Assembly: GCA_009869945.1 (NCBI GenBank)
Contig: WIXG01000015.1
Coordinates: 372,001-436,000 of the forward strand
DNA: 64,000 bases
Direction of reading: 5' to 3'
From: Mesaphorura yosii
Taxonomy: Eukaryota > Arthropoda > Collembola > Poduromorpha > Tullbergiidae
The notes beneath the pieces were generated by a model. It was given only the letters and a program-made list of their open reading frames with translations, searched no databases and was not told where the DNA came from. The translations under genes and the position numbers were made by a program. Below, in pieces: positions 12,301 to 53,205 of this stretch. Each line of letters starts with the position of its first letter. The stretch's first letter is position 1.

Positions 12301-15300
12301 AACGTTACAAGTGCACAATTTTTCTAAACAGTGGTCCAAATTCACCACCGATTGGCAGCATCGTTGGGGATTCTGCAAAGTCCTCCGGGGGAAGTGGAGA
12401 CAGGACGCCGCAGCATGATGATGGCACAGGTCGTGGTGATGGGTCTCCGTACAGAAACGCTTATGGTGCTCCAAACAGTGTTTGTGATTTGACTCTCTAC
12501 AGCAGTCCTTCTCTTCCAAACATTTCACTGGGTCGACCATTGCCCCCAAATGCCGTAAGTTCTACATCATAACATCACAATACCTGTGTTGCAGACGTGT
12601 GTAATGTGGAAGAGTTTGACATTTTTAATTGGCGTTGGTTCACAGGAGAGTAAACTCGCCGCTGTTTCCGAAACTGAAGTTCGAGGTCCTCTCCCACCGC
12701 AGGCTGGTCCAATTCCTCCATACCCTCTACAGTTTTACACTCCACATGGTCCAATTGATACTGCTGAGCTTGAAGCACTTTATCAATCGGGTGGAATCAT
12801 GGCTTTAGCTTATCAAGCACAAGCTGCGCAGGCACATGCTGAAATGACCGCGGCAGCCGCAAATGCCGCTGCGATGGAGGGACGCGGACCAGGCAGGCGT
12901 CCACTTGGTTAGTTACATGAATATATTAATTGATAGGATAAATTAATTCAACAATTTATTACGGTTTTAAGTAAGATCGAACGTTAAAGAAAACAATGAA
13001 CTTATAGAAAACAAACGGTTTAGTAGTTCACAAGTAAGAACATAATATTGAAATTACGTAGAATTAGTCCCCGATTTCATTGAGTCCTCCACGGCCGAAG
13101 CCCTTGTAATTATATGCTCCAAGTTCACGTTTAAACTTATCTTCGACAACTCTTGCATGCTCATGGGGAGCAAGTTTGTGTAAAATGGTTACCTTGCAAT
13201 GTCACGTCCTTTCAATGTGTGCTCATAACCAAAATGAATGCAAGTTATTCGAATCATCATGGTTGTCAATCAACTCTTGGATTTGTTCGGGCGAGTAATT
13301 CTTACCAGTCTTTGACAGTTGTGGACTCAAATGATTCGAAATACGGTGGTGTAATTTGTTTGTTGATCCCACATGTACTGCGTAATCACCACCTTCTTGA
13401 CATGTTGCACAGTGGAGAGCGTACACGACACTAGGAGTGCCGCATGTGAAGCGCTTATTCAAATCAATTTCCTTGTCGCCACCAGAGTTCAAAGTTTGTG
13501 AAGCTTTCACGATATCTCCATTTACACAACTGTGATGTCGACACCAGAAGGTCCCCGGCCGTAGTGGTCATATGTGGCGCTCTCGTTGGCTGCAAGGAGA
13601 ACGACCGAAATTAATTTTACTCACTCTAGTCACGGTTTCTCAATCTTCAATCTAGTCTGAAAAATTACTAGCCTTTAACGTCTTCACTTATGTTTACGTC
13701 GCAAAGAATTGGCTGCTCCCCTCCAGGCAGTTCTGAATATGGCTTCAATTGTTCATTGAATTTTGAAATGTACAGGCGTGTAACACCTTGCCCCAACACT
13801 TTTCGCGTGTTGATCTTCTTTATATCAGTGGCTATAATTCTTCGGGGAAGTTTCTCCTCACGATACTTCCGATTGGAGTCTCCGCTGATTGAAATTGTGA
13901 ATTTATGCTCATTGCTTTCCATCCAAGCTTTGAATTCTTGAAGTAGCTTCTTCTCCTGGGAAGTCAGCTTTGACTTGGATGTGGCGAAAGATCCTGGGAC
14001 GTATCTTGACCATACTGTGAAACAGAAATTACTCTTTTGATTCATGGAGCATGAGAATTAACTACTAGAGATGACTTACATTTAGTCGGGTCCTCAAAAA
14101 TCGGCTCACCAGTGGTCTCATTCCACTGCCACACCGTGGCTAGCTGAGTGTCATTGTTTGTCACTTTGGACGACACATTGTTTGTCTTATGAGACTTGGC
14201 GACAAAGGCTTCACTGAACTTCTTTCTCTGGGGTTTTGATAAGATCAAACGCCTTCATGACATCATCCGACGTTGACGAGGCCACGATGACAACACCGTT
14301 TTCACTTTGTACATAAACTTCTCGTCGTCTCTTCTCAAGCATTAGAGGCGGTGAGTCCGGCCCATTGCTTTCTGGTCCTCCCTTCCTTCCGCATTTCCCA
14401 CTTTTGGAAACCGCTGAGTCTTTAGATCTCTCCGTTGTGTCTGTGGCTGACGGTTTAGTTGGCAGACCAGTGGGTTCGGTTTCCGATTCAGAGTCACTGA
14501 AACCAAACACCTTGTTAAGCAACTTCCTGTTTGGGCCGACATTTCGTACGAGTACACAACAAAATGAGTGAGAAGTGTCTAACTGCCAGCAAACCTGAAC
14601 AATTTGTAAAAGAGCTGAAATTCGCACAATAAGTTGACCAATTTATAATTTATTACAAACATTGTTTTATTTTTTCTGCACATTCTGTAGGTCGAACACA
14701 ATCAGCTCCACTTCCGCTAGGGCATCCAATGCTGGTTCTTGGAGGTGCAGGATTGGTTAATGTCAACGGCATTGGCATTGGTGCTCCGACCGTTGTTCCT
14801 CCGCCGGTTCTGGATCCTCAGCAGGCGCACCAATTGCTGCGCCAACACATTCGGCAAACTGTCCTGACTCGTGCAGGATCTCGAGGTCAAGTCATGGTTG
14901 GCTCGCATAACCGTGCTGCAAGTGTCGAAGAAGATTCTGGCGAAGGGGAGGCCGAGAACGAGATCTCATCTGCTGAAAAACAAAGAGCCGCATTAAACAA
15001 ACAACAAGCGGAGGGTCAGCCCCAAGATTTAAGTTCAACCAGTACAACAAACAGTATTCCATCCAGCGCTTCAGCTTCGGCTATTTCACAACGACTTCAT
15101 CACTTGCACCATCACCAGTCTGGCAGACCACTGAGTCGCACTTTATCGAGTCCGCTGGTGGCACTGGGAAGTTCGCCCCAAGATGGTGTGCTGGCACTAT
15201 CAAGCAAGCCAGGAGGTACGGGGCTTGGATTCGACAGTCTTATGTTGAAGCACCAATGCTTGTGCGGTGACAACTCTCAGCATCCAGTAAGTTAAAATTC

Positions 15301-18300
15301 AATCCAAATAAATAAGAGCCATATTGATCACGACTCGCAATATTTTGTACATGCATTAACTAATTTCCAGGAACATCCAGGAAGACTTCAGAGCATTTGG
15401 GCGAGATTGCAGGTACGCAAACATTCTAATTTATGAGAATTAAAGGATAAATTAAATGAGTCTGTCAAACGTCAAGTCAAGTCTCAACAGTATAGATTTA
15501 TAAATCAATATTAGCATCAGAGCTATTGTTTGGATGAGACGATATTTCATTTACCTGTATTGTAAATTCTCAGGAGACTGGGCTTGCTAGTATGTGTGAT
15601 AGAATCCGAACAAGAAAAGCAACTTTGGAAGAAATTCAGAGCTGTCACAGTCAGGCTCATACCCTTCTATTCGGTAAGTGAAATAGAAGAGAACATAGAG
15701 TTTTGCATTGCTCTTCCTCGGCTTCTCGCTTCTTCCTCCGATTGACGCATTCTGGGAATTGGTGTCTAGTTTCACCGTAACCATTTTCGTTTCCAGGAAC
15801 GAATCCGCTGAGCCGTCAAAGAATTGAGCTGAATCGTTTTCCAGAAGCATCATTACCTATTAAGAGCTTGGTCAGACTTCCATGCAATGGAATTGGTGTC
15901 GACTCTGACACAGCGTGGAACGAACTGCATACGCCATCCGCGGCACGCAGTAAGTTTTCTAATTCTCCACAGTAAACTTTGAATTAACTTCAATTACACA
16001 TTTTCGTTTATTTAAAAAAAATAGTGGCGGCTGGTTGTGTTTTGGAATTAGCATTCAGGTGAGTTTTTCATTAGCTATTCCGCCTTTCTCCGTTGTTTCT
16101 GGCAATTGACATTTCATGTCATGGACGAACGTGTTTGCTATTGAACAGAGTTGCAACCGGTGATCTTCGCAATGGCTTTGCTGTCGTACGCCCACCAGGA
16201 CACCACGCGGAGCCCATGCAAGCAATGGGATTCTGCTTCTTCAATTCGGTTGCAATTGCAGCGAGACAACTTCGAAATCGGCTGCAACTGGAGAAGATTC
16301 TTCTGGTTGATTGGGACGTTCACCACGGTAAAATATATTTGACATGAGTAGCTTCGGCAAGCCTCATTAAACTTATTAACTCGACGAAGTTTTGTAACGT
16401 GTTTCGTGTTCCTTTAAAAGGCAACGGAACGCAGCAGATATTCTATGATGATCCTCATGTGCTATACCTTTCACTCCACCGACATGATGACGGGAACTTC
16501 TTCCCTGGAACTGGAGGACCAACCGAGGTAACGATTGAACGAAGAATTAGAATCCAACTTGCAAGCCTTACTTTTCTGGAACACAATTAAGTTATTGTAT
16601 TGCTGCTTTAGTGCGGAATTGAAGATGGCATGGGCTTCAACGTAAACATTGGCTGGGGTGGAGCACTAAACCCTCCAATGGGAGACGCTGAGTATATGGC
16701 TGCATTCCGATCAATCGTTATGCCGGTTGCACATGATTACCAGCCGGACATAATTCTTGTGTCATGTGGATTTGATGCGGCAATGGGGTAAGGACAATGC
16801 GCTATGCCCGTTCGCCCACATTTGAGAACATTGACTAAATCGTGATTCACTTTTACAGACATCCTGCACCGCTAGGAGGTTACAAGCTTTCGCCAGCATG
16901 TAAGTATTATAGACAATTTTAATTCAGTTGCATTTTAATAAAATGGAATTTTTATTTCCTTTCAGTATTTGGTTGGATGACTCAGCAATTAATGGCAGTT
17001 ACAAATGGAAAGGTGCGTAAATTCTTTTTGACAAATGCCAAGTCGGCCTTGATGGGATTAATAAGCTTCGTTTTGTTTTCAGGTCGTGTTGGCGCTTGAA
17101 GGTGCGTCAAATTTTGAACTTAGATAATTTGGAACTTTGAATTAATCTGGAGTGTATGTAACTGGAGTCATCGTTAAGCTCAACCTATCGTTTCAACTTT
17201 CGACAACTTGTATTATTATTTCATAGAACCTTCAGAACAAGTTTAAGAATTTTTCTTTAAGTGTACATGAAGTTTAAGTTAATCGGAAGCATATGGTAAA
17301 AGTTTTTAAGTGAACAGGTAAGTTAATCGGAAACATGGTAAAGAATAAGAATTCGAAATTAATGTTGAATGAGGAGGAAGTATTCGGGAACTACTCCATG
17401 TCTGAGTCGCAGTTGTTGCCATTTTTGTATTTATCAATATCCATGAGCTTGATTTCTTCTTCTGGGCAATGGAAGAGACCAAAGTAATGACGTTTCTTGG
17501 TGTTGTGATCTTTAGTGCAGTTAGGAACAACGCACATGATTTCGTGGTGCTTTTTTGCCAGAGAATTAGCAGCTTTCTTCTCATCATCGGTTAGCAAAAT
17601 TTCAACTTTAGAGATTGGCGTCACTTGATTGAGAGGAACCCACTGTGCTCTTGTTTTTGCTTCTTGAACCCTTCGACGGCAATCGCCAAGCAACTGTCAA
17701 CAAAAACCATAATTTAATGTTAATTTATATGATTTAGGATCATATTCTTACAATCTAAAATGCTTCAGCACCCTCCAGTTCATCCAGTGACCCATAGAAT
17801 TCTCGATGAATTTCGTACGCCACTTTATCCCCAGAGTCAAGGACTGCAACAATAGAACTTGATCCTCGTCCATAGTGATCGTCCAGAATGTCATGTGTAT
17901 TCTGATGTTGGCTCTTCTTGCCGACGTAGTACAAAATGATACATTTTGGATTGTCTGCATTAACGCGTAAATACTCCAGGAGTCCAATTGCTTTAGCTGA
18001 TGCATCCACAATGACAGTGAAATATAGAGCCCATGTAGTGGCTGTCAGCCTGTACTTGTGTTGAGTTGCCAGAGTTTTAAGCATTTGTTGACAAAATTCG
18101 GAGTCTTGCGAGTCATTGGTATCTTGAGAGTCATGTTTTTCAATTCCTGGAACCGTTGGGGAAGAACCAATCAAAGATTTGAGACTGTATGTGCGAAGGC
18201 TGCGATAGAAAATAATAAGTGAAAATTAGACTTAAATCATTGGTACTATATTTAATCGTCCAATCACTTACTTCTTGCACTTAGCTTCGCATTTTTTTTT

Positions 18301-52558: not shown

Positions 52559-53205
52559 ATGAAGTCCATGATCGTGCTTGTACTTTTGGCCGTCGTCACC
52601 GTCAGCGTCAACGCTGAACAGGAAAAGGGTAAGAACAGATTTATAATACAAGAAATGGAGTCGAAGTATACCAATTTCCTCTGTCTTGTTTTGTTGCAGT
52701 GTGCTTCCAAGCACCAGAATCCTGCAGCGAGCTTAGGGACGCCGCGAAGGGTTACATTCGAGGAGTGATGGCTCCACCGACGGGCGACATCGAGCAAGAC
52801 GCCCCAAAGGCCCTCGAGCACCTCCAGAACCTCTTCAGTCTGGCAGCCAAGTATGAGTGCAGGGTCGATAGCTGCAGATGCAATGCAGGCAAGCTGGAGT
52901 GCGCGCACGTGGCCGACAAGGTCCGAGCCGGGCTTGGCAAAACTGAGCCTCCAGCATGTGTCGCGGCCTCAGAGAAGGCTTCCGCTCATTTGGATGCGAT
53001 CAGACAGGCCGTGAAGGACGGCAACAGGCAGGGCATTGCTGATAACATCGGCGAGCTCCGAGCCGACCTCATCAAGGCCATTGAGGCCAAGAACTCCGAC
53101 GTCGTTACATGCCTGAAGGAGACCGTCGTCACTATTCGCGCTGGTCTGAAGGATAAGTTGAAGGAGCTTGTCATCCAGCCGAGCTGCGACTTCTGTCAGG
53201 CTTAA
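52559..53205 (+). CDS. secreted cysteine-rich protein, family not recognised
   Basis: Two coding exons (52559-52628, 52700-53205) join in phase to 191 aa. Residues 1 to about 19 form a signal peptide (MKSMIVLVLLAVVTVSVNA). The mature part has ten cysteines (VCF, ESCS, YEC, DSCRC, LEC, PAC, VTC, PSCDFC), with long amphipathic helical stretches between them, and ends CDFCQA. The coding exons are clearly richer in G/C third positions than neighbouring DNA, which suggests high expression. The promoter has a TATA box, and AATAAA is at 53266-53271. It is likely an extracellular or haemolymph, gut or cuticle-associated small protein. I cannot name a family, and it may be lineage-specific. Confidence 0.85.

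Follow-up and report, generated by a model that had tools for sequence, protein, structure and literature searches.

An intron of a histone deacetylase (HDAC) gene in Mesaphorura yosii is occupied almost completely by a decayed gene on the opposite strand, which is probably a dead member of a dispersed family of selfish genes residing in spliceosomal introns. The window in which it lies is the whole stretch of DNA analyzed, 64,000 nucleotides long (contig C15:372001-436000). Copies in the same genome form a family with one shared architecture; they have kept small introns of their own, bear the mark of past coding constraint and in many cases lie antisense within introns of their hosts, a position that is read from predicted splice sites and, for ten hosts, from protein homology. 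An earlier, sequence-only reading of the window recognized the decayed gene and missed three things: the family of at least 40 places, the filling of nearly the whole intron by the element, and the recurrence of antisense residence in introns.

The host intron has predicted splice sites, with a GTTAGT donor at 12908 and a CTGTAG acceptor whose last base is 14690. The exons on either side are both open and both phase 1, and three exons of the histone deacetylase domain follow downstream at 16075-16788 (Pfam E values 9.9e-28, 6e-12 and 6.1e-13). The claim that a decayed antisense gene fills most of this intron holds well: exon-like open pieces on the minus strand span 13064-14642, and nearly all of the 1783 nt is element, the full length of which is about 1.75 kb. 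Its parts are as follows.

12908..14690, plus strand: HDAC host intron holding the element, 1783 nt (predicted splice sites, in-phase flanking exons, downstream HDAC exons)
14649..14661, minus strand: 5'-terminal motif of the element, TGTTTGTAATAAA (exact match; same or similar in other copies)
14475..14531, minus strand: conserved N-terminal motif (tblastn matches in L002, L013/L033, L027 and L039)
14211..14642, minus strand: first coding piece, open, with its 3' end at a loss of frame
14042..14254, minus strand: piece with a conserved 16-residue motif (tblastn matches in many copies)
14015..14079, minus strand: the element's own first small intron, 65 nt, GTAAGT..TTTCACAG
13668..14057, minus strand: exon of a conserved domain (LLRRILAxDIKK..PYSxLPGGEP; 31 genome matches, no Pfam or PDB match)
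13223..13567, minus strand: GTFWCR..C motif and first half of the GIY-YIG-like domain (VVY..C..C..HVGST..LHHR; 39 genome matches)
13064..13201, minus strand: end of the GIY-YIG-like domain and stop codon (homologous in most fetched copies)
12955..12960, minus strand: the element's poly(A)-type signal, AATAAA, which lies about 45 nt away from the donor of the host

Piecewise comparison with homologues from the same genome locates at least four losses of frame (at about 14211-14254, 13567, 13223-13245 and 13190-13201), as many as had been counted from the window sequence. Of the introns attributed to the antisense gene, the one of 65 nt has counterparts at the same position in L028 (72 nt), L006 (75 nt) and L007 (84 nt); a second element intron, before about 13590, is decayed in the window copy. 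The 5' motif recurs in the same or similar form upstream of the coding part of L003, L007, L018, L021, L024 and others, several copies have a CCAAT-box-like GCTGATTGG in the 5' region of the element, and poly(A)-like signals lie past the stop codon in many other copies. No second copy was found in the window, all but weak matches (best E 0.017) falling within 13.0-14.6 kb. Elsewhere in the window, at 52559-53205, open frames with an apparent 71 nt intron between them encode what looks like a small secreted protein containing Cys. A group I or group II intron was considered and rejected: no ribozyme structure was recognized, the segment 12800-14800 having no Rfam match up to an E value of 1, and the splice sites are GT..AG.

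The C-terminal domain is probably a diverged GIY-YIG-like domain, as judged from sequence resemblance. This had been proposed from the window alone, and it is the family that gives the proposal moderately strong support: seven of the 19 members (the family alignment, A1, comprises 19 of 30 pieces) match PF01541 at E ≤ 1, the best at 3.3e-4, with the next-best other family at E 0.0053, whereas the window piece itself scores 16.6 bits (E 0.0099) and stays under the Pfam cut-off of 22.6 bits. Searched against the M. yosii genome, the PF01541 model has no matches at E ≤ 0.001. Across the family the Y of VVY (at least 90%), two Cys residues between VVY and HVG, HVG itself and an H after HVG are conserved. 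At the catalytic positions YIG reads HVG, the R in LHxR and the E in EDKFKR are frequent, and the N is variable; the replacement of the Y of YIG by H in nearly all members and the inconstancy of the C-terminal N count against a GIY-YIG assignment. The part of the family corresponding to 13064..13201 aligns with the E..YN..GG part of Seg nucleases, and the HHalign score of this C-terminal half against seven phage Seg-type nucleases is 24.4 at a probability of only 9.7%, with a maximum score of 16.0 among 20 column-shuffled controls. The suggested structure prediction, a single-sequence model of the window piece, shows strands and one helix whose order is compatible, at a pLDDT of 46 that makes the model unusable. 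Pfam, PHROGs and NCBIfam searches with the family found nothing better than GIY-YIG, searches of the PDB, made with the window piece and with both profiles, yielded nothing beyond chance matches, and the protein of one member turned up no relatives when compared with collections of viral, phage and prokaryote sequences. Neither Pfam nor the PDB has a match to the upstream domain.

At E ≤ 0.01 the piece 13223-13567 has 39 matches in the genome, grouped as 35 places, the best non-self match being 2.5e-37. The exon piece 13668-14057 has 31, three of them at places outside the first list (contigs C37, C60 and C10), and a DNA search adds two further places (C384 and C85), so that the family numbers at least 40 places in the 93.0 Mb genome, the window included. 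The homologue search that the sequence-only reading called for was thus productive, and no known transposon class was recognized in the homologues. Exon order and spacing are common to the 30 places that were fetched around the C-terminal match, with upstream exons undetected in six of them (L010, L014, L017, L025, L026 and L030). There are single departures from this architecture: in L047 (C10:475916-476221) the upstream domain is present and the nuclease part is undetected, and the nuclease exon of L049 is interrupted by an insertion of about 350 nt, at about 1645-2000. On contig C69, L014 (174951) and L027 (177820) are about 2.8 kb apart in opposite orientation. A large population of short copies was not seen, a 5' motif pattern with up to two mismatches matching eight places of which five are known copies.

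The copies are old. The closest long pair is 76% identical in DNA over 1.1 kb, with one 253 nt stretch at 78%, and no recent copies were seen among the family pairs compared; mobility is therefore inferred from dispersal and not seen. Only three of the 30 fetched nuclease exons (L007, L014 and L018, by eye) are open from GTFWCR to GGLN. Synonymous and nonsynonymous change was compared in 235 pairs with at least 60 codons, from 23 of the 30 places; dN/dS is below 1 in all 64 pairs with dS < 2 (median 0.29) and is 0.13-0.31 in the nine closest pairs. Because substitutions between copies are mostly synonymous, the family has, on this comparison of sequences, long evolved as a working protein, and did so for most of its history.

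Flanking open frames at 17 of the 30 places were tested with Pfam, a test that replaced weak codon scores of these frames. Hosts could be named at 11 of the 17, ten with the element antisense and one with it sense (p = 0.012 against an even split). The hosts with their Pfam assignments are listed here.

Window, antisense: histone deacetylase
L002, antisense: IRF-2BP zinc finger
L005, antisense: neurotransmitter-gated channel
L010, antisense: Ig domains, on both sides
L011, antisense: Tra1 ring, on both sides
L016, antisense: cytidylyltransferase
L018 and L020, antisense: Ras family
L019, antisense: ion channel
L024, antisense: dynein heavy chain
L006, sense: myosin tail

From the junction translations we take the host of L018 to be Rab1, that of L020 to be Rab3 and that of L016 to be a CDP-DAG synthase. 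Among the 17 places tested there is no Pfam host at L007, L009, L021, L026 and L028, and the match at L015 is below the cut-off; L025, and perhaps L027, appear by eye to be sense. At L002 and L016 the host Pfam domain stops mid-profile exactly at the donor on the element side (38 of 72 and 169 of 264 positions). Judging all 30 places by the longer of the flanking open frames gives 19 antisense, nine sense, one tie and one without such a frame, a weak measure that errs for L009 and L020. Donor-like sites were scanned at locus positions 2090-2300, about 60-300 nt past the element stop; 18 of 30 copies have a best site of at least 5.5 on the antisense strand, and one of 30 has such a site on the sense strand (Wilcoxon p = 2.6e-5), and scores of at least 4.5 number 25 antisense and nine sense, compared with three and none in a control inside the coding sequence. 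The bias is consistent with selection acting against poly(A) and splice signals in sense orientation within the introns of hosts. On contig C8, L006 lies sense beside the myosin tail exon, and about 9.5 kb upstream, on the opposite strand, there is a second copy that is partial (584906-585105 and 594665-594991 for the two copies).

The relatedness of these introns is confined to the introns, and their genes are unrelated, as in introners: the alignment of each copy with its best partner ends within the predicted splice sites in all 15 copies by strict scoring and in 14 by medium scoring, the exception being L009, where it extends 26 nt beyond the donor; weaker partners sometimes overrun. The element may make introns, insertion creating an intron with its splice sites at the ends of element or target in the manner of an autonomous introner, which is possible and rather to be doubted than accepted; or an ordinary DNA element may insert into, or survive in, short old introns that it merely lengthens, which is quite possible if short of probable. 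As controls we used the gaps between myosin-head exon matches that are neighbors in this genome (86 of the 93 were entered), giving 50 introns with an estimated minimum of 62 nt and a median of 86.5 nt, 64% of them at 62-95 nt, as host introns suited to lengthening should be, and 11 above 200 nt. These control introns are sharply clustered at 62-96 nt. The 14 element introns of copies with upstream exons are of similar length (1766-2070 nt, SD 92; about half of the junctions are fixed by homology and the remainder by reading phase or by eye), which favors intron creation, and the smallest residuals favor it further, about 26 nt in the two cases confirmed by homology and so below every control intron. 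In L024, where homology to dynein fixes the junction (DWKRIIF-G-ICVFHAVILERKKF), 26 nt of the intron lie outside the part aligned with the nearest relative under both scorings; in L016, which is outside the 15-copy set, the aligned 5' end is 5-7 nt from the acceptor and, with AATAAA taken as the element end, 19 nt remain to the exon, whereas controls have at least 62 nt. The other dynein places also cross the L024 site free of an intron in six of six cases (by match coordinates; one has an internal stop). Against intron creation, residuals below 62 nt are found in just one of 15 copies by strict scoring and four of 15 by medium scoring (L010, L012, L019 and L024), and in eight of 15 the medium scoring leaves 101-375 nt, where diverged ends partly fail to align. 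Residuals of 64-89 nt in the remaining three (L001 89 nt, L002 88 nt and L004 64 nt) have the length of a normal short intron and argue for insertion into old introns, as does L020 at 60-76 nt by weaker partners, although its best partner gives 254 or 375 nt.

Further observations are divided between the same two accounts. A cruder scan, over the window and its flanks, gave three candidate introns below 60 nt, compared with one in the reversed control, and no target-site duplication was found by eye, both of which weigh against intron creation. Thirteen other GTPase places run through the Rab3 site (L020) in an open frame and without interruption, but another four GTPase matches start or stop no more than 3 residues away from it, and a Rab8-like gene (L084/L091, C151) has an intron 4 nt downstream of the Rab3-like element intron position. 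The preceding exon ends in G in 14 of 15 element introns, against 5 of 17 selected and 6 of 27 unselected controls (7 of 13 rows with 2 G, all 13 having 3, and 10 of 14 rows with 3 G, all 14 having 3); this leans slightly towards intron creation, with the caveats that the donor picker favored G and that the long introns may need stronger sites. Random insertion into old introns is in turn hard to square with the fact that introns of 320 nt or less make up 20% of the intron DNA yet hold 14 of the 24 copies with upstream exons (p = 4e-5, in a test that assumes random insertion within introns and in which acceptors are visible within about 550 nt of the start codon only). The element ends cannot be fixed for most copies, and the alignment ends are too uncertain to settle intron creation, which for some copies is plausible and unproven.

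Two other origins have to be weighed with these. A decayed Penelope-like retroelement, which would bring a GIY-YIG domain and kept introns, is unlikely. We take the C..C between the GIY and YIG positions to be reminiscent of Penelope nucleases, which speaks for it. So does the capacity of Penelope elements to disperse intron-bearing genes, as described in the portion of the report cited (PMC3846280). The upstream exons, however, encode a different conserved domain without a Pfam match, and the failure of the sequence-only reading to see a reverse transcriptase extends to the whole family: the 93 Mb genome has at least 19 RVT_1 matches, and none of these 19 lies within 10 kb of any copy, the nearest on a shared contig being about 16 kb away. 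The apparent 5' truncations of L010 and L017 look like internal deletions, in that both still have, by eye, some or all of the 5' motif ahead of the break; they are the two of the six copies without upstream exons in which the motif was examined. The kept introns and the 5' motif in L010 and L017 argue against target-primed reverse transcription and, together with the lack of a nearby RVT_1 match, favor copying at the level of DNA. A host family of domesticated nucleases, nested in introns and spread by segmental duplication, would agree with the purifying selection and with the promoter-like region and poly(A) signal that the gene has of its own. It is improbable even so, in that the 11 named hosts differ from copy to copy (two small GTPases being among them), so that host exons did not travel with the copies, and in that only the three open nuclease exons noted above are found in the 30 places. 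A DNA transposon with terminal inverted repeats was also considered and rejected, neither inverted repeats nor a target-site duplication being seen by eye at the ends of L006, L007, L010, L017 and L024 or in the flanks.

We favor the reading of a selfish gene that was dispersed by its own nuclease. The encoded enzyme would cut DNA at or near its target, the element would be copied in by repair of the break as a homing endonuclease gene is, and the host would splice it out as an intron or as part of one. Antisense orientation would shield the host mRNA from the element's splice and poly(A) signals, and after fixation the gene would decay, as the window copy did. Such nuclease and break-repair copying would explain the kept introns, the dispersed and unrelated sites, the decayed and diverged copies and the lack of a reverse transcriptase, and repeated rounds of invasion, fixation and decay agree with finding, at many sites, single copies that are old, diverged and for the most part dead. 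The more specific proposal of an intron on one strand and a GIY-YIG nuclease gene on the other, spreading free of reverse transcriptase at G|G exon sites, is put forward tentatively and is doubtful as a whole.

The origin and present mobility of spliceosomal introns is an old question, and the arrangement in M. yosii may be relevant to the ways in which genes acquire introns or come to have longer ones; if the element does make introns, then new introns would be by-products of nuclease-driven copying. A report of a comparable nuclease-bearing intron family in eukaryotes was not found in the open-licence literature, and the known systems each share a part of the arrangement. In the portion of the published account cited here, the nuclear group I intron Dsq.L2066 in the rDNA of a myxomycete has a homing endonuclease gene in antisense (PMC9548176), and thus shares with the M. 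yosii element an antisense nuclease gene with a small spliceosomal intron and an AAUAAA signal in a nuclear intron; it differs in its host intron, a group I intron in rDNA that splices itself, and in its enzyme, which is of the His-Cys type. The cited part of another source describes a nuclear GIY-YIG insertion in a fungus that is of mitochondrial origin (PMC7593156). Penelope-like elements, according to the parts of the two papers drawn on, share a GIY-YIG domain and kept introns and differ in having a reverse transcriptase and different N-terminal domains (PMC3846280, PMC11167929).

The element is, on our best reading, closest to shintrons and introners, and is a dispersed, DNA-level, intron-dwelling nuclease element that is now mostly dead. 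Introners are likewise dispersed related introns in unrelated genes, with families having median lengths of 30-654 nt in the cited portion of the survey (PMC9860276); unlike them the M. yosii element is about 1.8 kb long, protein-coding, old and diverged. The shintrons of mirusviruses are spliceosomal introns that carry genes for nucleases of the HNH, GIY-YIG and further types, GIY-YIG accounting for 132 of the 334 reported in the part of the account cited (PMC12768974), and the M. yosii element resembles them as a spliceosomal intron harboring a nuclease gene, being found in GT-AG introns of protein-coding genes, with the splice sites predicted and the nuclease putative from its resemblance. 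Shintrons as described there are mostly in viral virion genes and have target-gene specificity (PMC12768974), whereas the M. yosii element is in an animal nuclear genome, at its at least 40 places and in unrelated, conserved host genes, is antisense, and has a nuclease gene that is itself split by introns. The authors of that work wrote in 2025, in the section cited, that equivalents in eukaryote genomes are apparently missing (PMC12768974). A family of this kind in animal nuclear introns would supply such an equivalent, and would make nuclease-driven intron gain testable across close species.
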